Shown in pieces: positions 52,744 to 63,935 of a stretch of 64,000 bases of DNA (its first letter is position 1; the number at the start of each line of letters is the position of its first letter). The position numbers and the translations under genes are program-made. Below the pieces are notes generated by a model. That model was not told the origin of the DNA, did not search any database, and saw only the letters and a list, made by a program, of their open reading frames with translations. Where the stretch lies: assembly GCA_947258975.1 (NCBI GenBank), contig CAMYKK010000029.1, positions 1 through 64,000 on the forward strand. The letters run 5' to 3'. This DNA is from an uncultured Gammaproteobacteria bacterium. GTDB taxonomy: Bacteria; Pseudomonadota; Gammaproteobacteria; Arenicellales; JAANXG01.

Positions 52744-54096
52744 ATGAGTAAGAGCAGCAGTATTTTCCGTATTGCCGGAATTTTGACTCTCGTTGCGGGT
52801 CTATTAGCCGCGCCGACGCTGGTTCAGGCGCTCGAGGACAAGCTGGTTGTTGTGACCTCTTTTCCTAAAGACCTGACCGGTGCCTTCAAGGCGGCGTTCG
52901 AGAAAAACCATCCCGGCGTTAAGGTCGAGATGTTAAAAAAGAAGACCACGGCGGGAGTCAAGTATCTGCAAGAGACGGCGTCCAACAACACATCGGACAT
53001 GTTTTGGGCATCCGCGCCCGACGCGTTCGAGGTATTGAAGAGCGACGGGTTGCTACAGAAATATCAACTCAAGGCCACCGGCATCCCGGACATGATCGGC
53101 GCCTACCCGATCAATGATCCCGATGGGTATTACAAAGGATTCGCCGGCGCGGGTTACGGGATCATGTGGAACGAGCGCTACATCAAGGCCAAAAAATTGC
53201 CGGCGCCCAAGGAGTGGTCCGATCTGGTCAAACCCGTATACCATGGGCATGTGGGTATGTCGGCGCCATCGCGCTCCGGTACCACCCATCTCACCGTTGA
53301 AACGCTGCTGCAGGGCGAGGGCTGGGAGAAAGGCTGGTCTATGTGGAAAGAGATCGCGGGTAACTTCAACACCGTGACGGAAAGAAGTTTCGGTGTTCCC
53401 GACGGCGTCAATTCCGGGCAGTTCGGACTCGGTGTGGTCATCGATTTCTTCGGTCTGTCATCCCAGGCCTCCGGTTTCCCAGTGCAATTCGTTTACCCGA
53501 CCGTCACCACACTGGTGCCGGCCAACATCGGGATTGTTGCCAACGCGCCACACCCCGAGGCGGCGGGGGCATTTATCGAGTTTTTGATGTCGCAGCAAGG
53601 CCAGGAATTGTTACTCGACCCGAAGATCCGCCGCCTGCCGGTGCGCCCGGATATTTACCGCAACGCGCCCGCCGGGTTTCCTAACCCGTTCAAGGACAAG
53701 TCGATCGGCGCGGCAGTCAAATTCGATGTGGTCAAGTCCAAGAACCGTTATAACCTGGTCAATTCCCTGTTCGACGTGATGATCACCTACCGGCTGGACG
53801 ACCTGCGCGCCGCGACCAAGGCCATCCAGGATGCCGAGTCCGCGCTGTCCGGTAAGTCCAATGCCGAGGCGCAGAAACTGATCGCAGAGGCCAAGGCATT
53901 GGTCGGTGCGGTGCCGATCGATGAGGCGATGGGGTTGAACAAGGATTTCGCCGGCATTTTCAAGAAAAAGCGTAAGAAAGCCACCGACAAGGTGACCGGC
54001 CGGCAGGCGGAGGTCGAGGCCGAATGGGACAACATGGTCAAGGCCAATTACGCCAAGGCCAAAGCGTTGGCGGATAAAGCCATATCGATGTTGTGA
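52744..54096 (+). CDS. Iron-type ABC importer substrate-binding protein
   Basis: A 450-residue periplasmic protein with a signal peptide (ending APTLVQALE). The first 330 residues follow the Fbp/AfuA or 2-aminoethylphosphonate group: VVVTSFPKDLTGAFKAAFEK, DMFWASAPDAFEVLKSDGLL, YKGFAGAGYGIMWNERYIKA, NIGIVANAPHPEAAGAFIEF and LLDPKIRRLPVRPDIY. The last 110 residues are an unusual Lys/Ala-rich helical tail (from DLRAATKAIQDAESALSGKS to KAKALADKAISML). AAGGAG precedes the ATG. The permease and ATPase genes follow. Substrate: ferric iron, a spermidine/putrescine-type or phosphonate compound; not decided. Confidence 0.85.
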   Translation: MSKSSSIFRIAGILTLVAGLLAAPTLVQALEDKLVVVTSFPKDLTGAFKAAFEKNHPGVKVEMLKKKTTAGVKYLQETASNNTSDMFWASAPDAFEVLKSDGLLQKYQLKATGIPDMIGAYPINDPDGYYKGFAGAGYGIMWNERYIKAKKLPAPKEWSDLVKPVYHGHVGMSAPSRSGTTHLTVETLLQGEGWEKGWSMWKEIAGNFNTVTERSFGVPDGVNSGQFGLGVVIDFFGLSSQASGFPVQFVYPTVTTLVPANIGIVANAPHPEAAGAFIEFLMSQQGQELLLDPKIRRLPVRPDIYRNAPAGFPNPFKDKSIGAAVKFDVVKSKNRYNLVNSLFDVMITYRLDDLRAATKAIQDAESALSGKSNAEAQKLIAEAKALVGAVPIDEAMGLNKDFAGIFKKKRKKATDKVTGRQAEVEAEWDNMVKANYAKAKALADKAISML

Positions 54097-54111
54097 CCTG
54101 CGACCCTTGGT

Positions 54112-54128
54112 GGGGCGGCTCGCGCCCC
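54112..54128 (+). other. Stem-loop between binding-protein and permease genes
   Basis: GGGGCG (54112-54117) pairs with CGCCCC (54123-54128) around a 5-base loop, 15 bases after the binding-protein stop. Such hairpins commonly stabilise binding-protein mRNA and reduce read-through into the permease gene. Confidence 0.45.
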
Positions 54129-54166
54129 GCCATGACCGCCACCCTTTGTTACCGGAGCGGTCAGCG

Positions 54167-55876
54167 TTGAGCAACTTCGCACGTACCTCGCCGGGCCCGG
54201 CCGTTGTTGCCGTTTTGCTCGCGTTGTTCTTGCTCGTGTTTCTGGTGATCCCGGTGGCCAAGGTCATCTTCGTCGCGTTTCAAGATCCCAATACCGGCGC
54301 GCTGACCCTGGTCAATTTTGCGGACTTCTTCAATACATCCTTATTCCGCGAATCATTCTTCAATTCCCTGTATGTCGCCTTGATGTCGGTGTTGGTGGGT
54401 TCGGTAATTGCTATGCCGCTCGCATATTTCACCACCCGTTTCAATTTCCATGGTGCGGTCCTCATACAAACCCTGGGCGTGATACCGCTGATCATGCCGC
54501 CTTTTGTCGGCGCGGTTGCGATGCAACTGCTGTTCGGCGCCAACGGATCGATCAATTTGTTATTAGACGATTGGTTTGGCATCAATATCCCGTTTATGGA
54601 GGGCCTGAACGGCGTGATCCTGGTGGAGAGCATCCATTATTTTCCCTTTATCCTCATCAATCTGTCTGCCGCATTGAACAACATCGACCGGTCCATGGAG
54701 GAGTCGGCGCAGAATCTCGGGGCCAATGGCTTACGCTTGTTCCGGCGCATTGTTTTTCCACTGGCCATGCCCGGGTACGTGGCCGGCGCGTCGTTGGTAT
54801 TTTTGAAAGTATTCGACGACTTGGGTACGCCGCTGCTGCTCAATGTCAACAATATGCTCGCCCCCCAAGCCTATCTGCGAATCACATCCATCGGCATCTC
54901 GGACCCGATGGGTTACGTGATTTCCGTGATCCTGGTATTGTTTTCTTTGTTTGCGTTGTGGACCTCATTTCTGGCGATGCGCGGCAAAGACTACGCGACG
55001 GTGCAAAAGGGCGGTGGCGGTCTTATGAAACGGGATTTGCGGATCTGGGAGAAAGTCGGGGCCTACGCGGTGGTGATCTTCACATTGTTGGTCGTGTTGT
55101 CACCGCATATTGGTTTGACACTGTTGTCCTTCGGCACCATCTGGTCGTTCAGCGTGCTTCCGGACGGCTTCACGCTCGCCAATTACCAGGAAATAATCGG
55201 CACCACGTCCGAGTACATCACCAATACCATGCTGTATGCCGGTTTGGCGGCGTTAATCGATGTGATCTTTGGAATCGCCATCGCCTACCTCGTGTGGCGG
55301 ACAAAGCTGGTGGGGCGCAAGTGGTTGGACTACCTGGCCACCGGCGCACTCGCGATCCCCGGGGTGGTGTTGGGAATTGGCTATCTGCGCACCTTCTACG
55401 AATTTGAGGTGCCGTTCATCGGCCAGCCGCTGGCGAGCTGGTGGGTTATTATTGTTGTCGCCTTGGCGATTCGCCGTTTGCCTTACGCATTGCGTGCCTG
55501 CGTCGCCGCGTTGCAGCAGGTGGCGGTGGCATTGGAGGAGGCGGCGGAGAACCTCGGCGCCACCAAGTACCGCACCGTTAAGCGGGTGGTGGTGCCGCTG
55601 ATGTCGGGCGGTATCATCGCCGGGTTCGTTACCAGCTTCGCCACCGCGGCGGTGGAATTGTCGGCGACCATCATGCTGGTGTCGGCGGAGTCGGATGCGC
55701 CGTTATCTTATGGTATCTATGTGTTCATGCAGTCGGCCGCCGGCCGCGGACCCGGCGCAGCCTTGGGTATGATCGCGGTCATCATAGTGGGTGTCGCCAC
55801 CTACTTGTCGCATCGGGTGATCGAGCGCGGCAAACGCGAGCGAGCGCTTGACGCTGCCCTGGCGGGAGGAGTCTAA
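54167..55876 (+). CDS. Fused two-domain ABC importer permease
   Basis: A 569-residue permease made of two BPD_transp_1 domains, about twelve helices in all, as in FbpB/AfuB. Each half carries an EAA loop: MEESAQNLGANGLRLFRRIV and LEEAAENLGATKYRTVKRVV. The start is TTG at 54167, with GGAG eight bases upstream and an N-terminal membrane helix right after; upstream in-frame codons overlap the hairpin. Only 3 bases separate it from the ATPase gene. Confidence 0.88.
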   Translation: MSNFARTSPGPAVVAVLLALFLLVFLVIPVAKVIFVAFQDPNTGALTLVNFADFFNTSLFRESFFNSLYVALMSVLVGSVIAMPLAYFTTRFNFHGAVLIQTLGVIPLIMPPFVGAVAMQLLFGANGSINLLLDDWFGINIPFMEGLNGVILVESIHYFPFILINLSAALNNIDRSMEESAQNLGANGLRLFRRIVFPLAMPGYVAGASLVFLKVFDDLGTPLLLNVNNMLAPQAYLRITSIGISDPMGYVISVILVLFSLFALWTSFLAMRGKDYATVQKGGGGLMKRDLRIWEKVGAYAVVIFTLLVVLSPHIGLTLLSFGTIWSFSVLPDGFTLANYQEIIGTTSEYITNTMLYAGLAALIDVIFGIAIAYLVWRTKLVGRKWLDYLATGALAIPGVVLGIGYLRTFYEFEVPFIGQPLASWWVIIVVALAIRRLPYALRACVAALQQVAVALEEAAENLGATKYRTVKRVVVPLMSGGIIAGFVTSFATAAVELSATIMLVSAESDAPLSYGIYVFMQSAAGRGPGAALGMIAVIIVGVATYLSHRVIERGKRERALDAALAGGV

Positions 55877-55879
55877 GCG

Positions 55880-56959
55880 GTGACGACAGGACCCGTAAGT
55901 GTCAAGATCGAGGATGTGCACGTGTCCTTTGGCCGCACGCGCGTGTTGACCGGTGTGAACCTCGATATCGAACCAGGGGAGTTTTTCGCGTTTCTGGGGC
56001 CCTCGGGTTCAGGTAAATCGACACTGTTGCGCGCGATTGCGGGATTCGGACCCCTGCCGGCGGGACGTATTCTCATCGATGGCCAGGATATCACCGCATT
56101 GCCGCCATGGAAACGCAACGTCGGCATGGTGTTTCAGAGCTATGCCCTGTGGCCGCACATGACGGTGCGCAAGAATATCGCGTTTGGACTTGAAGAACAC
56201 AAGGTCGACGCCAAGGAGATTCGGCGCCGGGTGGATGCCGCGCTCGATTTGGTAGGCTTGGCCGAGTATGCCGATCGGCGACCCACCCAGCTCTCCGGCG
56301 GGCAGCAACAACGGGTCGCCCTGGCGCGCACGGTGGTGATTGAACCGCGTGTCCTGCTTCTGGACGAACCGCTGTCCAACCTGGATGCCAATCTCAGGGT
56401 GCAGATGCGCCGGGATATCCTCGACCTGCAACGCAAGTTATCACTCACCACGATTTTTGTGACCCACGATCAGGAGGAGGCCAACACGATGTCGGATCGC
56501 ATGGCGGTATTAAACGACGGCGTGATTCAACAGGTGGGCGCGCCGATGGCGCTGTATGACCGGCCGGCTAATTTGTTCGTGGCGGATTTTCTCGGCACCG
56601 CGAATGTGCTCGAGGGACGCTTTATCACCGACAATGGGCGCAGCCGCTTCACGGATGAAAGCGGCATCGAGATTGTTATCGACAAGACAGTGGAACCTGG
56701 GTACGGCGCGCTGGTGCTCCGGCCGCAGAACTTGACCATCCAGCCTCCCGGGGCGTCCCATCGGGCCCACATCGTGCCGTTACCGGGCACTGTGCAATAC
56801 GTCGAATTCTTGGGTTCCATTGTCCGCTATGCAGTGCAAGTCGGACCGCATGTCATCCTTATCGATGAGAGTCACCATCAGGGGGACCAGGTGTTCGAGC
56901 AATGGGTAGCGGTGGAAGTTGGCGTGGATACGAATTATTTGACCACCCTTGCCCAATAA
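55880..56959 (+). CDS. Iron-type ABC importer ATPase
   Basis: A 359-residue ATPase with Walker [12 protein letters not shown]-loop [12 protein letters not shown], signature [13 protein letters not shown] and Walker [15 protein letters not shown]-terminal TOBE-like regulatory domain covers about residues 240-355. It resembles FbpC/PotA-type importers. The start is GTG at 55880 with GGGAGGAG about ten bases before it. It completes the operon of binding protein, fused permease and ATPase. Confidence 0.92.
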
Positions 56960-57391: not shown

Positions 57392-58051
57392 TCACCAAGC
57401 CGGCGGTAGTTTTTGGTGAATGAGGATATGATCCTTCTTGATGTCGATATATCCACCCGTTGACAGGTCCTTGAGAATACGGCTCACCATCTCGCGTGAG
57501 GCGCCCACCATTTTGGCAATTTCCTGCTGCGAAGGCCTTTCATCAATTATTAATTTGCCGTCAATTTCTTTCGCCATGTCGAGCAAAACCCTTGCAATCC
57601 GGCCGTAGACATCCAGCAATGCCAAGCCTCTAACGTTCTCTGTCAGATGCCTGATCTTTTTCGTGAGGGTTTCCAAGAGCGTGAGTGCAACAGTGGGATT
57701 GTTGACGAGATACGCATCGAAGTCCGCTTTTGAGATCACCGCGACGGTTGTGGGTTCCAGGGTCATCACCGAAGCGGAGCGGGCGCCACCGTCAAGCAAT
57801 GACAGTTCACCAAAGTACTCGTTCGGCTCTAATCTAGCGAGGATGATCTCTTTTCCATGCTCATCATTCAGGAATACCTTTACCTTGCCGGAATGAATGA
57901 CGTACAAGGTGTTCGTGATGTCGCCTTCCGTCATGACGATGGTGTTTTTGGGAAAGCTGCGGGTAATGGCATGGCTCGAAATAGTCTTCAAGTCTGCTTC
58001 CTTGAGACCGGAAAAAAGTGGGATGTTCTCCAACGTTTTGTGTACGTCCAT
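57392..58051 (-). CDS. Crp/Fnr-family transcription regulator
   Basis: A 219-residue protein. Residues about 10-120 form a cyclic-nucleotide binding domain with the phosphate cassette FGELSLLDGGARSASV, in which the Gly-Glu and Arg-Ser residues of CRP are kept, so cAMP or a similar ligand is plausible. A long dimer helix follows (about 125-150), and residues 165-215 are a winged helix with PSQQEIAKMVGASREMVSRI as the recognition unit. The Cys cluster of FNR is absent. It is divergent from the CHASE2 cyclase gene, and two palindromes sit between them. It is therefore the likely receiver of the cyclase product. Confidence 0.88.
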   Translation of the reverse strand: MDVHKTLENIPLFSGLKEADLKTISSHAITRSFPKNTIVMTEGDITNTLYVIHSGKVKVFLNDEHGKEIILARLEPNEYFGELSLLDGGARSASVMTLEPTTVAVISKADFDAYLVNNPTVALTLLETLTKKIRHLTENVRGLALLDVYGRIARVLLDMAKEIDGKLIIDERPSQQEIAKMVGASREMVSRILKDLSTGGYIDIKKDHILIHQKLPPAW

Positions 58052-58090
58052 AGGGCCGATGTCCGCAAGCGTGGGTTCACGGAGATCATA

Positions 58091-58131
58091 CTATGACCAT
58101 TCATAGAATGACATTGTTTGGAGTTCAAACA
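58091..58131. promoter_or_regulatory. Two palindromes between crp-like gene and cyclase gene
   Basis: CTATGACCATTCATAG (58091-58106) has perfect 6-bp arms and a TATGA-N4-TCATA core with the spacing of Fnr-type sites. TGTTTGGAGTTCAAACA (58115-58131) is a second palindrome (6-bp arms, 5-base centre). They lie 40-80 bases upstream of the Crp-like start. Likely targets are the Crp-like protein and perhaps another regulator. Confidence 0.55.
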
Positions 58132-58324
58132 CTCACTAGACAACCCAATTTTCCCGCAGAACACACTTGCTAAGTTTCCCCCACATGCACAATACATCGT
58201 ATGATGGGCTCGGTACTGAATAAAAGTTTCAGGGTAAAGACCTTCAAACGACTTTGTCATCCGCGGTCACCGGGCTTGTGCCTTCGAAATCCACACGCGG
58301 GTGCGACCGCCGTTTAGAAAGAAC

Positions 58325-60532
58325 ATGTCGCATCGCAAAAATGCCACGGTATTGGGTTTGTTGGTGGGATTGCTCGGCAGCTTGGCATCGCTGACATCAA
58401 CCGGTTGGTTTGTAGAGCAAGAGATCGGACTCAGCTGGTTGTTCAAGCTGCGAGGGAAGGTAACGGCGCCTGCGGATGCCGTGGTTGTCGTGTTGGATAA
58501 GGAATCGGCGGCGCGGTTTGGGCAGTCGTCGAAGATCCGCAACTGGGCGCGGTCGTTACATGCGGAACTCATCGACAAGCTGACCGCGCGTGGCGCAGCG
58601 GTTATCGTATTCGATATTTTTTTCGAAGCAAACCGCGATCCTGGCGGTGATCGTGCGTTGGCGGGCGCCATGCGACGGAGTGGGCGGGTGGTGCTGTTCC
58701 AACGCGTCGAGCGCGAACGAACCCCCGTCGTCACATTGGACAGTTTGGTCACGCCAACGCCTGTAGTAGCGGCAGCGGCGGCGGGGCTCGGGCCTTTTCC
58801 TCTTCCCAAGGTTCCCAATCGCGTGAATCAGGTGTGGGCGTTTTACCCGGCGGTGGGCAATGTTGCGACGCTGCCTGCCGCGGCGCTGCACATTTATGCC
58901 TTGCAACGGCTCGGGTATGCCAACCTAATCTCTCGGCTGAAACAGGCCGGTTTCCCGTTAACGGACGTGCTTTCCAGGGAACCCGCATCGGCGCGGGATC
59001 TGCAAGCGTTTATCGGTGTGTTGCGCAGTGGATTCCGCGGCCGGCCCGGTTTTGCGAACTGGTTTATCACGGAACTAGGGAAGTCAACGGAACTGCCGCC
59101 CGGCACGGAAAAGATCCTTACCGCCTTGGCACGTATGTACGCGCGGGATGACAGTTACTTTTTGAACTTTTATGGTCCCGCCGGGACGATAACCACGATT
59201 CCGTATCATGCGCTCTGGGATGAGCGTGCGGATTCGGCCGCGTTGCCAGATCTTGCCGGCAAGGCGGTGTTTGTGGGCAGCACGCACATATCGCTCACCG
59301 ACCGATTAGACGATTTCCACACCGTGTTCTCTACCGAGGATGGGGTAGACCTCGCCGGCGTGGAAATTGCCGCGACCGCGTTTGCCAACCTGTTAGACGA
59401 TCGTGCGTTGCGCCCCGTGGACAAATGGATGGGCGGCGCAATTTTGTCGTTGCTGGGGCTCCTGAGCGGCTGGCTGGGCTACCGATTACCCGGTGTACGG
59501 GCGGTGAGCGCCATCGTGGTTCTGGGCACCGGTTACCTGTTTGCCTGCGGGCATGTTTTTTCCAACCACGGTCTGTGGATGCCGACTTTTATCCCCCTGG
59601 TCGTCCAGCTGCCGTTGGCCCTGACGTTGGGTCTTTTGTGGCAGTACCTCGGCGCACGGCGCACCAGCGAGAGGGTCACACGGGCGATCCGATATTACGT
59701 GCCACGCAGAGCGGTGGATCGCCTGGTTGAGGAGGGCGAACCCAGCACAGCGGTGGAATTCGATTATGGCGTTTGTCTGTTCACCGATGTGAGCGGATAC
59801 ACGACGTTGACGGAGGAGGTGGCGCCGGCCGAACTGGCCAGGCTATCGAACGAATACTTTTCACTGCTGGGTGTACGTCTTGGTCAGTGGCAGGGGGAGA
59901 TGATGGGATTCGGCGGGGATGGCATGGTCGGATTGTGGACCGAAGCGCATCCTGCCAAGAACGCGTGCCTGAGCGCGTGTTGCGCGGCACTCGACATCCT
60001 CGATGACGTTGATGATTTCAACACGAAACATCCCGATCGGCCCTTCCACACGCGCATCGGCGTGCACGCCGGCTCGGTGGTGTTGGGCAACGTTGGCGGT
60101 GGTGGACATTACAGCTACGTGGCGCGGGGTGACATCATGAACACCGCTTCGCGGATCGAAGGGCTGAGTAAGCTGTTGCAAACTCGGCTGCTGGCTGATG
60201 AATCGGTGGTTAGGCATCTAGACGAATTGCTGGTGCGCGGGACGGGGACATTCGTACTGAAGGGCAAGCATGATGCATTGACGATCTATGAAATTCTATG
60301 CCGGTGGCAGGATGCGACCCGGAATCAGCAGCAACTCTGTGAGATGTTCGACGCCGCGATGAAAGTTTTCGACGCAAGGCGATGGTCTGTCGCCGGGAGG
60401 GATTTTGAAGAAATCCTCACGCAGCACCCCGGCGACGGTCCAACGCGGTTTTATCGCGATCTATGCCGAAAGTATGCCGCCGGAACGCGCGACGAGGATG
60501 CGAGCGCCACTATTCGAATTGTGACGAAATAG
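58325..60532 (+). CDS. CHASE2-domain class III nucleotide cyclase
   Basis: A 735-residue membrane protein. An N-terminal helix is followed by a large periplasmic CHASE2 sensor (about 35-380; typical DKESAARFGQ and RGAAVIVFDIFFE segments), then three membrane helices (about 375-455), a class III cyclase domain (about 478-665) and a helical C-terminal extension. Metal Asp488 (LFTDVSGYT) and Asp532 (FGGDGMVGLW) are kept. The substrate Lys of adenylyl cyclases, expected at 528 in KFxGD, is Gly here (MGFGGD), and the second specificity residue in VARGDIMNTASR is also atypical. It may make cAMP with unusual recognition, another cyclic nucleotide, or be inactive. ATG 58325 was chosen over GTG 58301. 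Confidence 0.85.
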   Translation: MSHRKNATVLGLLVGLLGSLASLTSTGWFVEQEIGLSWLFKLRGKVTAPADAVVVVLDKESAARFGQSSKIRNWARSLHAELIDKLTARGAAVIVFDIFFEANRDPGGDRALAGAMRRSGRVVLFQRVERERTPVVTLDSLVTPTPVVAAAAAGLGPFPLPKVPNRVNQVWAFYPAVGNVATLPAAALHIYALQRLGYANLISRLKQAGFPLTDVLSREPASARDLQAFIGVLRSGFRGRPGFANWFITELGKSTELPPGTEKILTALARMYARDDSYFLNFYGPAGTITTIPYHALWDERADSAALPDLAGKAVFVGSTHISLTDRLDDFHTVFSTEDGVDLAGVEIAATAFANLLDDRALRPVDKWMGGAILSLLGLLSGWLGYRLPGVRAVSAIVVLGTGYLFACGHVFSNHGLWMPTFIPLVVQLPLALTLGLLWQYLGARRTSERVTRAIRYYVPRRAVDRLVEEGEPSTAVEFDYGVCLFTDVSGYTTLTEEVAPAELARLSNEYFSLLGVRLGQWQGEMMGFGGDGMVGLWTEAHPAKNACLSACCAALDILDDVDDFNTKHPDRPFHTRIGVHAGSVVLGNVGGGGHYSYVARGDIMNTASRIEGLSKLLQTRLLADESVVRHLDELLVRGTGTFVLKGKHDALTIYEILCRWQDATRNQQQLCEMFDAAMKVFDARRWSVAGRDFEEILTQHPGDGPTRFYRDLCRKYAAGTRDEDASATIRIVTK

Positions 60533-60603
60533 TTGAGCGGAGCGATAAGTTATCGAACGTACGCCGAACGCGAACCATTTTATTGATTAATACCCCGATC
60601 AGT

Positions 60604-60619
60604 GGTATGGAGTGATACC
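60604..60619. promoter_or_regulatory. GGTAT-N6-ATACC dyad upstream of FecR-barrel gene
   Basis: A 16-base dyad about 100 bases before the start of the FecR-TPR-barrel gene and 70 bases after the cyclase stop. The spacing of six matches CRP-like sites, but the half-site is not TGTGA. It suggests separate control of the barrel gene. Confidence 0.35.
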
Positions 60620-60719
60620 GATCTCTGCAATTGTTTGACGACCATAGCCGCATCGGCAGTAGCTGTCGCTGTATGACGCTCGAAAGTAGTGTCCACACTG
60701 CGAGTTACAAGGAAACACA

Positions 60720-63700
60720 ATGAGAAAGTTGTCGCTAAAACTGGCAGTTGTTGTGCGTGTTTTTCTTGTTTGTCTTATGTCATGGCCGTCGCTGGCGGGC
60801 GCGCTATGCGTCAACCCTGTCGCCGAGCTCGTTTCCACACAAGGCACAATCGAACTCAACAAATCCCCCGCAAGACTATCCGATGCGATTTGTCCCGGTG
60901 ATGTCGTCACAGTAGGCCCCCGCAGCCGCGCGGCAATCGTGATTCTGGAAACAGACACGGTGTTGCGAATCGATCAAGATACGGAGCTGCGTGTGCGCAA
61001 TGTTTCTCCTCAGGGAGCTTCTCTTCTCGATCTGTTGCAGGGGGCGATCAATCTGTTGACGCCGGCACCGCGATCGCTGGAGATCACAACGCCGGTGGTC
61101 AATGCCGCGGTGGAGGGAACCGAATTCTACATGCGTGTCGCAGCGGATCGTGCGGTGATCACCGTCTTCGAGGGACGCGTGGCAGCGAGCAACGATTTCG
61201 GCAGCTTGAAGTTAACCGCTAATGAATCGGCTGTCGTCGTCGCCACCCAAGCCCCGAAAAGGCAGGCCATGGTCCGCCCCCGCGACACCGTACAATGGGC
61301 CTTGTACTACCCGCCTATCGGCGTCGATGAAACCGCGTCACCGTCAACGCGCCGCGCGGCGGAGTTGCTGGCGGTTGGCAGGGTGGATGAGGCCGGCGGC
61401 CTGTTGGATGATGCAATTCGCAAGAACCCCAACGAGGTCGCTGCCCTTGCGTTAAAAAGCATTATTGCCGTTGCCCAAAACCAGACTGATGCGGGGTTAC
61501 AGCTAGCGGAGGATGCGGTTTCCACGAATTCAGGATCGGGAGTTGCCCACATCGCGCTTTCCTATGCGCAGCAAGCGAACTTCCGGCTCGACCTTGCCAG
61601 GCAAAGTGTAGACAAGGCGGTAGAGTTGGATGCGGATAACGCGTTTGCATGGGCCAGATTATCGGAGTTGTGGTTGTCTGAAGGCAATCTCAATAAAGCG
61701 CTGGAGGCCGCGGACCAGGCCGTGAAGCGTGCCCCGGACCTGGCGCGGACCCAATCGGTGCTGGGTTTTGCCTATCTGGTCCGCATAAACATCGGCGAGG
61801 CAAAACAAGCGTTCGAGAATGCAATTCAACGCGATCAAGCCGATCCCCTGCCGCGCCTCGGCCTGGGTCTGGCGAAGATCCGGCGTGGCGATCTCATCGC
61901 AGGGCGCCGGGACATGGAAATCGCCGCCAGCCTCGACCCGAACAATTCACTGCTGCGCAGTTATCTCGGCAAGGCCTATTTCGAAGAAAGGCGCACGCCC
62001 CTGGACGCGCGGCAGTTTGCACTGGCCAAGGAGTTGGATCCCAACGATCCAACACCGTGGTTGTACGACGCCATCCGCAAACAGACCCAGAACCGGCCGG
62101 TCGAGGCGTTGCAAGATCTGCAGCGATCTATTGATCTCAACGACAACCGCGCAGTGTACCGATCCCAGTTGTTCCTCGACCAAGACTTGGCAGCACGCAG
62201 CGCCGGATTGGGACGGATATACACTGATCTTGGCTTCGAGCAGCGGGCGTTGGTCGAGGGTTGGAAATCCGTCAACCGTGAACCGGGTAATTTTTCTGGG
62301 CATCGACTGCTGGCTGATACCTACGCGACACTGCCACGCCACGAGATCGCACGGGTCAGTGAGCTGCTCCAGTCTCAACTCCTGCAACCTCTCAATGTAA
62401 CGCCGCTTCAGCCTCAACTGGCGGAAAGCGATCTTTTTATTATCAGTGGCACTGGACCATCGGATCCGGCTTTTAACGAGTTCAATCCCCTCTTTGCCCG
62501 TGACCGGTTGGCCTTGCAGGCTAACGGGGTACTTGGTGGGAATGACACCATCGGTAACGACCTGGTGCTGTCCGGTTTGCACGGTAAGATATCGTATAGC
62601 GTCGGCCAGTTTCACTTTGAGTCGGAGGGATTTCGTGACAACAACGACCAGAATCAGGACATCTATAACGCCTTTGTGCAGGCAAACCTGTCACCTGTGA
62701 CCAGCATCCAAGCGGAAATTCGATCGACAGACAAAGACCAGGGCGATCTTGGCCTGCGTTTTGATCCGGACGATTTTTCGCCAGTCTTACGCAGTCAAGA
62801 GGAAACTGATCTCGTTCGTGTCGGATTGCGTCATAACTTGACGCCGGGTTCCAGTGTCGTCGGATCTCTAATTTCCCAGCGTGCAGACTTTAGAACAAGC
62901 GAAAGCTTCCCACCGCTGGGAGACGTTTTATTCGATGAAGAGGTAGATGGGTATATTGCCGAGCTTCAACATCTATTCCGAGCGGAACGTTTCAACATCA
63001 TTAGTGGTTTAGGATATTTTGAGGGAGATGTGGAGGAATTTAGCAATGTTTTTGGAACTGTCGAGCAAGAAACAAGCGACATAAACCATACCAATGGGTA
63101 TGTTTATTCGAAAATCGAATATCCCAGGAATGTAACGTGGACAGTCGGCTTGAGCGCGGACTCATTCGAAGAAGTGTTAATAGATAGTGATGAACTTAAC
63201 CCAAAATTCGGAGCAACATGGAATCTGCGCCCGGAAACAACTATCCGTCTTGCTGCGTTTCAGGTATTGAGGCGGACTTTAGTTGCTCAGCAGACCATCG
63301 AGCCCACGCAGGTAGCCGGCTTCAATCAGTTTTTTGACGATGACAACGGTACCAAATCCAAGCGGTACGGCATTGCTATAGATCAGCAATTTTCTGAAAA
63401 ACTCTACACCGGGATTGAGTTGTCGAAAAGGGAACTGACGATACCCAACGACATTTTCCTCACGCCGCGTCAACTCATCGAATTCGATTGGGAAGAACGA
63501 GCCGACCGGGCCTATCTGTATTGGACGGTACATCCGCGGATGGCGGTTACCAGTGAAATCCAACGTGAGCGCTTCGATCGACCGCAACCTGATGGCCTGG
63601 GACCTTTTTTTGGTGTACGGCGCCTCACGACGTATCGTGTTCCATTAGGCGTTAATTTCTATCACCCATCTGGTTTTATCGCACGCTTTAGAGCCGTCTA

Positions 63701-63935
63701 TTTAGATCAAGAAGGCACGTTTGTAGATACGTTTGGGGCTACGGTAGAGGGTGACGAAGATTTCTGGGTGGCCGATCTAGATATTGGCTACCGTCTGCCA
63801 AAAAGGCGCGGTCTTATCACCATCGGTGCGAGAAACTTATTTGATAAGAAATTCAGATTTGAAGATGTAGATCCTGGTAATCCTTCACTACAGCCGGAGC
63901 GGTACGTGTTTGCGCGCGCCACTTTGGCTTTTTGA
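60720..63935 (+). CDS. FecR-TPR-outer membrane beta-barrel fusion protein
   Basis: A 1071-residue exported protein. The signal peptide ends near residue 29 (SLAGALC). Residues about 45-180 are a FecR domain (GDVVTVGPRSRAAIVILET, LQGAINLLTP and TPVVNAAVEGTEFYMRV). TPR repeats follow at about 200-560 (recurring A-x-x-LDPNN and ALEAADQAVKRAPDLARTQS units). The remainder (about 570-1071) is rich in amphipathic beta-strands, ends in ARATLAF with a C-terminal Phe and contains GYRLPKRRGLITIGARNLFD, all typical of TonB-dependent receptor-like barrels. There is no plug domain. It lies 187 bases after the cyclase. FecR normally signals to an ECF sigma factor; none is present. ATG 60720 follows AAGGAA. 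Confidence 0.85.
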   Translation: MRKLSLKLAVVVRVFLVCLMSWPSLAGALCVNPVAELVSTQGTIELNKSPARLSDAICPGDVVTVGPRSRAAIVILETDTVLRIDQDTELRVRNVSPQGASLLDLLQGAINLLTPAPRSLEITTPVVNAAVEGTEFYMRVAADRAVITVFEGRVAASNDFGSLKLTANESAVVVATQAPKRQAMVRPRDTVQWALYYPPIGVDETASPSTRRAAELLAVGRVDEAGGLLDDAIRKNPNEVAALALKSIIAVAQNQTDAGLQLAEDAVSTNSGSGVAHIALSYAQQANFRLDLARQSVDKAVELDADNAFAWARLSELWLSEGNLNKALEAADQAVKRAPDLARTQSVLGFAYLVRINIGEAKQAFENAIQRDQADPLPRLGLGLAKIRRGDLIAGRRDMEIAASLDPNNSLLRSYLGKAYFEERRTPLDARQFALAKELDPNDPTPWLYDAIRKQTQNRPVEALQDLQRSIDLNDNRAVYRSQLFLDQDLAARSAGLGRIYTDLGFEQRALVEGWKSVNREPGNFSGHRLLADTYATLPRHEIARVSELLQSQLLQPLNVTPLQPQLAESDLFIISGTGPSDPAFNEFNPLFARDRLALQANGVLGGNDTIGNDLVLSGLHGKISYSVGQFHFESEGFRDNNDQNQDIYNAFVQANLSPVTSIQAEIRSTDKDQGDLGLRFDPDDFSPVLRSQEETDLVRVGLRHNLTPGSSVVGSLISQRADFRTSESFPPLGDVLFDEEVDGYIAELQHLFRAERFNIISGLGYFEGDVEEFSNVFGTVEQETSDINHTNGYVYSKIEYPRNVTWTVGLSADSFEEVLIDSDELNPKFGATWNLRPETTIRLAAFQVLRRTLVAQQTIEPTQVAGFNQFFDDDNGTKSKRYGIAIDQQFSEKLYTGIELSKRELTIPNDIFLTPRQLIEFDWEERADRAYLYWTVHPRMAVTSEIQRERFDRPQPDGLGPFFGVRRLTTYRVPLGVNFYHPSGFIARFRAVYLDQEGTFVDTFGATVEGDEDFWVADLDIGYRLPKRRGLITIGARNLFDKKFRFEDVDPGNPSLQPERYVFARATLAF

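Follow-up and report, generated by a model that had tools for sequence, protein, structure and literature searches.

In the 64,000-nucleotide stretch analysed here ('the window', bases 1-64000 of contig C29 from an uncultured gammaproteobacterium), a Crp/Fnr-type regulator, a CHASE2 nucleotide cyclase and a FecR-TPR-barrel protein are encoded side by side. We consider that this locus is probably related to the trans-envelope pathway NsrA-CyaK-Clr of the nitrogen-fixing bacterium Sinorhizobium meliloti and forms its gammaproteobacterial counterpart, in the order barrel, FecR, CHASE2 cyclase, Crp. The linkage of the gene set is conserved across the class. The genome measures 5.49 Mb, and its near relatives include the uncultured Gammaproteobacteria metagenome-assembled genomes FCS_M_Gamma_073, 074 and 077. 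A preliminary description of the window had named the three genes, and Pfam finds all of them, the barrel being recognised by sequence only:

57392..58051, minus strand: crp, Crp/Fnr-type regulator, 219 amino acids (Pfam cNMP_binding 88.2 bits, HTH_Crp_2 53.3 bits)
58325..60532, plus strand: CHASE2 class III nucleotide cyclase, 735 amino acids from its likely start (Pfam; start from relatives)
58421..59458, plus strand: CHASE2 domain (Pfam)
59774..60283, plus strand: class III cyclase domain (Pfam and residue reading, 735-amino-acid numbering)
60720..63935, plus strand: FecR-TPR-outer-membrane barrel protein, 1071 amino acids (Pfam, family profile, S. meliloti profile similarity)
60903..61181, plus strand: FecR domain (Pfam)
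62397..63932, plus strand: barrel region used for family profile A3, with Phe at its end (profile)

The cyclase frame, 58301-60532 (+), matches CHASE2 (95.9 bits) and Guanylate_cyc (47.3 bits). The cyclase gene had thus been correctly recognised, but its start, first placed at 58301, is probably the ATG at 58325, as in the proteins of relatives. A simple hydropathy scan gives the cyclase three hydrophobic segments, one N-terminal and two after CHASE2, and the barrel protein a single one, a signal-peptide-like N-terminal segment (residues 8-26); Pfam finds FecR (46.8 bits) and TPRs in the latter. The match of this protein to Pfam TonB_dep_Rec_b-barrel lies below the cut-off (23.1 vs 27 bits). 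Against the PDB, the sole convincing match of the family profile is the iron-transport outer-membrane receptor 5fok (E 5.4e-6), the remaining four having E values of 0.04-0.06. The predicted barrel is better supported by the family profile and the S. meliloti similarity than by the Pfam match. The crp product carries the cyclic nucleotide pocket motif FGE...RSA and a Crp-type recognition helix.

Conservation of the gene set

Profile A3, made from 16 barrel sequences, was run on 369 Gammaproteobacteria, and the barrel family was found in 45 of them at E 1e-10 or better. Each genome was classed by its best locus. A partial match (G399, E 1.5e-12) was left out of the locus classes, and nine genomes with one flank shorter than 3.5 kb were set aside (G060, G087, G152, G190, G222, G232, G237, G290 and G407), which left 35 genomes judgeable for locus content. 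The triple of Crp, cyclase and barrel genes was present in 21 of these 35, belonging to 15 families. A script based on the longest open reading frames (ORFs) found 18 triples, genes in GC-rich loci being hidden from it; tblastn added G208, G319 and G270, in the last of which Crp lies beyond the barrel gene. Cyclase and barrel genes without Crp were found in nine genomes (G104, G140, G160, G191, G244, G255, G343, G380 and G417), and Crp with a barrel gene in G147. For G127, the partner of the barrel gene was a CHASE2 histidine kinase. A co-occurrence survey of this kind had been proposed in the preliminary description; it finds the set linked, and the gene observation is better supported than the window sequence alone could show.

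At the locus of G127 (L101, 1206-8279), a barrel-family gene with FecR and TPRs adjoins genes for a sigma-54 response regulator and the CHASE2 histidine kinase, so that an unchanged input is joined to a different output. Of the three barrel genes in G380 (L116, L117), two lie near one cyclase and the third stands by itself; G144 and G092 each have a barrel frame split in two. When one module cyclase was searched in 20 of the 27 genomes without a first-pass triple, 17 had a 34-47% homologue somewhere, and G127, G152 and G272 had only distant ones (28-30%). A phylum sample of 398 genomes yielded five barrel-family matches: two belong to the same class, and the other three, all weak, to a single genus of another class. 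That genus (L141-L143; G596, G561 and G450) carries remote members of the barrel family that include a FecR part, and the stretches fetched around them, one just 5 kb in length, showed neither CHASE2 nor a cyclase or Crp.

In a survey of 60 relatives from the window's order, proteins 28-79% identical to the window cyclase were encoded near a barrel homologue in G001, G002, G003, G005, G006, G008, G012, G015 and G032. G005 has two such pairs, and G037 one with a contig-edge fragment. The orientation of the pair varies (same direction, divergent or convergent), and the genes stay together, with two genes in between at L049. Crp adjoins the pair in G001, G002 and G005; in G006, tblastn places the last 32 Crp residues at the contig end, adjoining the cyclase. 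From these same-order relatives Crp could be read as a genus-level neighbour only, a reading that was dropped because the class survey has the triple in other families. At L066, 8338-12536 (G015), and L067, 95-4328 (G025), a Crp homologue (50%) is encoded divergently from a long frame for a class III cyclase of another architecture. In the window, genes for the solute-binding protein, permease and ATPase of an ABC transporter (52744-56959) adjoin crp, an adjacency kept in G005 and also in G004, which is without the cyclase and barrel genes.

FecR, CHASE2 and known systems

A tblastn search of the window barrel protein against plasmids matched S. meliloti pSymB in the FecR domain (33%). In the annotated record CP140955 the matched gene immediately precedes cyaK, on its upstream side, and from this position, together with what Garnerone 2018 reportedly describes, we take it to be nsrA. 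The encoded protein has FecR and TPRs, and its last part matches profile A3 with a probability of 96.6% (E 5.6e-10, 411 columns); its similarity to the window barrel protein is low in blastp (24-25%). The cyclic AMP response of S. meliloti to the plant signal needs NsrA and CyaK (PMC7529298) and runs through CHASE2 cyclases and Clr (PMC13001267). As in the window, a FecR-TPR-barrel protein is encoded beside a CHASE2 cyclase, and the Crp-type reader, Clr, has the G/E/R/S pocket of the window Crp. Two differences stand out: clr has cyaD1 and a FecR gene as neighbours (by SMc numbers; PMC5498481) and does not adjoin cyaK, whereas the window crp adjoins the cyclase; and CyaK keeps a Lys/Ser purine pocket, which the gammaproteobacterial enzymes mostly lack.

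Other precedents are in print. A Campylobacterota cluster described in 2022 combines a CHASE2 cyclase, a phosphodiesterase, a FecR outer-membrane protein and a TPR protein (PMC9239204); unlike the window, it has the TPR as a separate gene and a phosphodiesterase, and the accessible text names no Crp in the cluster. The Burkholderia BiofilmReg operon likewise places a FecR protein beside a CHASE2 sensor, but with LysM instead of the TPR-barrel and with a two-component output, LysM-FecR being followed by a CHASE2 histidine kinase and a response regulator (PMC5192318). The linked set had been called uncharacterised, a claim that fails for this kind of system: NsrA-CyaK-Clr shares its domain layout and comes with genetic evidence, and the Campylobacterota cluster is published as well. 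The kind of system is therefore not new. What looks new is the fixed Crp-cyclase-barrel locus and the cyclases with a replaced purine-reading pair; a literature search, with most subscription journals outside its coverage, found no paper on the gammaproteobacterial locus.

The association between FecR and CHASE2 extends beyond this locus. It was counted in 114 class genomes with 92 FecR and 129 CHASE2 matches over the family cut-offs (matches rather than genes, a few genes giving two). Forty-two of the 92 FecR matches lay within 8 kb of a CHASE2 match, against about 1.3 expected from match numbers and genome sizes. The control domain CHASE was near none of the 92, although 67 of them lie in CHASE-bearing genomes. 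These figures supersede a first count of 41 of 90 FecR matches, with 123 CHASE2 rows; four FecR and two CHASE2 rows were dropped as under the cut-offs. All four CHASE2 proteins of the window's genome have a FecR neighbour, and their outputs are a histidine kinase, a GGDEF-EAL protein and two cyclases. Of the sequence evidence, this pairing of an unvarying input with several outputs speaks most clearly for the direction from FecR to CHASE2 to output, and FecR and CHASE2 may be in physical contact. The three other loci comprise a LysM-FecR gene adjoining the histidine kinase (L006, 8119-12416), a FecR gene adjoining the GGDEF-EAL protein (L008, 7410-11690) and a FecR gene near the second cyclase, where a ShlB/POTRA protein is also encoded (L007, 8559-13303).

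Cyclase pocket and Crp-type partner

Active-site residues were read in 42 cyclases from the loci fetched for the barrel family; the G208 cyclase is not among them, the contigs of L048 and L105 end before a barrel gene could appear, and L054 and L097 are fragments. The residues for metal binding and the transition state are largely kept: the first metal Asp in 41 of 41 readable members and the second in 42 of 42, the transition-state Asn in 40 of 42 and Arg in 42 of 42. The window cyclase has D488, D532, N606 and R610, with G528 and V599 at the purine-reading positions. These two positions are occupied by Asp/Arg in 26 of the 42 cyclases, from 26 genomes outside the window's order, and by Gly/Val in the four members of the window's genus; apart from one Lys/Thr member, the rest are mixed, other odd pairs occurring in the window's order. 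The adenylate-cyclase purine pocket (Lys with Ser, Thr or Asp) is absent from the window enzyme, and a single member of the 42 has Lys/Thr (L054). An acid, Asp or Glu, stands at the Lys position in 31 of 41 readable members, where the window has Gly. The other CHASE2 cyclase of the window's genome, at L007, keeps Lys and Thr.

Most cyclases of the set thus have an altered substrate pocket and may make a different messenger. Guanylate cyclases carry a Glu in place of this Lys, and the Glu contacts N1/N2 of guanine (PMC7384201). Since guanylate cyclases use an acid at this first site, our guess is that the Asp/Arg enzymes, and likewise the other members with an acid there, make cyclic GMP (cGMP). 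For the Gly/Val enzyme of the window, the product cannot be predicted.

The pocket motif FGE...RSA is present in 23 of 23 module Crps (those of G208, G319 and G270 are left out of this set), and nucleotide binding is thus predicted from sequence; the matching residues of Clr are named as nucleotide contacts (PMC10127613). At the Thr-Thr position of Clr, the window Crp appears to have Leu-Thr, in a register set by eye. Of the 22 module loci that include a cyclase, 20 have crp divergent from it. In a tree built from 49 Crps, 4 label changes suffice to place the 23 module Crps, compared to 16.5 when labels are shuffled, and none of 500 shuffles was as low; the module Crps do not form a single clade, and many forks of the tree are open. 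Among the loci of free Crps, 2 of 26 lie within 500 bp of a class III cyclase, both in one genus; a third is 3 kb away from one.

Two elements were identified upstream of crp (alignment A5, comprising the window, L009, L010 and L011):

58085..58124, no strand: 40-bp block, nearly unchanged in four genus members
58091..58106, no strand: dyad CTATGA-N4-TCATAG, candidate Crp operator

The dyad is perfect in the window, L009 and L011 and has one change in L010. Its 6-4-6 layout equals in length that of the Clr site, HGTYHC-N4-GRWACA. Both the block and the dyad overlap a TATGAT hexamer on the crp strand, so that promoter constraint alone could explain the conservation of the dyad. The exact dyad occurs once in the window's genome; allowing one mismatch, there are 5 places, against 10 for the reversed control pattern, and no regulon can be read from it. 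A common operator was rejected. No 5-mer dyad occurred in more than 4 of the 23 upstream regions, as in 20 shuffles (3-4), and the CRP consensus scored 6.74 on average upstream of module crp genes, compared to 6.76 in 200 shuffles. The expectation that Crp acts at intergenic palindromes is thus based on one dyad conserved in the four close relatives; nothing is common to other families.

Proposed mechanism and alternatives

The barrel protein would reside in the outer membrane and sense either a ligand from outside or the condition of the envelope. Within the periplasm, the FecR part of this protein, with the TPRs, would act on the CHASE2 domain of the inner-membrane cyclase, whose cytoplasmic domain would alter the level of a cyclic nucleotide. 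The neighbouring Crp-type protein would read this nucleotide and switch transcription, perhaps also from its own promoter. That the barrel binds a ligand, that the enzyme is active and makes a given messenger and that Crp binds DNA are each predictions of this scheme. A broader proposal, which we put forward only tentatively, is that of a dedicated gammaproteobacterial outer-membrane-to-Crp relay, where Asp/Arg cyclases would make cGMP or another nucleotide than cyclic AMP and the Crps would be tuned to it, FecR being a general CHASE2 partner with exchangeable outputs.

Several observations weigh against the pathway proposed for the locus. The window cyclase is without both purine-reading residues, which makes its activity doubtful. 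AlphaFold gave no usable structure (mean predicted local distance difference test score of 37.5 for the barrel protein and 36.2 for the cyclase, four sequences each), and adjacency cannot prove contact between FecR and CHASE2. Seven of the nine cyclase-barrel pairs lack Crp where it would be visible, the contigs of G140 and G343 ending too early to show it; the barrel gene is alone, with both flanks present, in G187, G272 and G342; and no cyclase lies in at least 6 kb 5' of the barrel gene in G087, G237 and G407, which had been set aside. Within the window's order, the best Crp homologue of G008, G012, G015 and G032 is on another contig than the pair. G004, a member of the window's genus that is 86% complete, keeps Crp (88%) and the ABC transporter, and neither the whole cyclase nor the barrel protein has a good match in it. 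Finally, no operator common to the families was found upstream of the 23 module crp genes. The linked Crp partner of the preliminary description holds for the 21 class loci and not for those four genomes of the order. The direction it proposed, from barrel and FecR through CHASE2 to Crp, has a studied precedent in S. meliloti, with the doubt on the window enzyme set against it; the mechanism is plausible and partly supported.

Some of these observations would fit a cyclase domain that, in the window's genus, makes no cyclic nucleotide, the module signalling by contact or decaying. The Gly/Val pair in four genus members, the other odd pairs in the order and the absence of the pair from G004 point that way. 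However, the window protein keeps both metal Asp, the Asn and the Arg, the module proteins of the four genus members are 70-79% identical, and the window frames are unbroken; we find such a loss of function improbable. It is also unlikely that barrel, FecR and CHASE2 cyclase alone constitute the pathway and that its product is read by other Crps or receptors. The separate Crp of several genomes of the order, the crp gene that stays with the ABC transporter in G004 and the location of clr beside cyaD1 rather than cyaK (PMC5498481) argue for such a bystander, but Crp adjoins the pair in the 21 class genomes of 15 families and the module Crps cluster on the tree. Classical FecI-FecR-FecA surface signalling, whose sigma factor would have to be encoded at another place, shares with the window a FecR domain tied to an outer-membrane barrel. 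In the window, though, FecR is fused to the barrel behind the signal-peptide-like segment, with no further membrane segment, and Pfam finds no anti-sigma or plug domain in this protein. Nor is there a sigma factor gene, as first described, among the 16 proteins scanned on this contig from 47.6 kb to a point roughly 8 kb beyond the end of the window, small ORFs excepted. On domain layout and the lack of a sigma gene among these proteins we reject this reading, giving it next to no probability.

If the locus is indeed related to NsrA-CyaK-Clr, a pathway of one plant symbiont would come to stand for a widespread, sigma-factor-free type of trans-envelope signalling with a conserved sensing part (FecR barrel and CHASE2) and an exchangeable output. 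CHASE2, whose signals were called unknown in a 2016 paper (PMC5192318), would gain a definite partner for testing, and a direct prediction on the messenger would follow from the altered purine pocket. The fixed Crp partner and the altered purine pocket are the features worth following.

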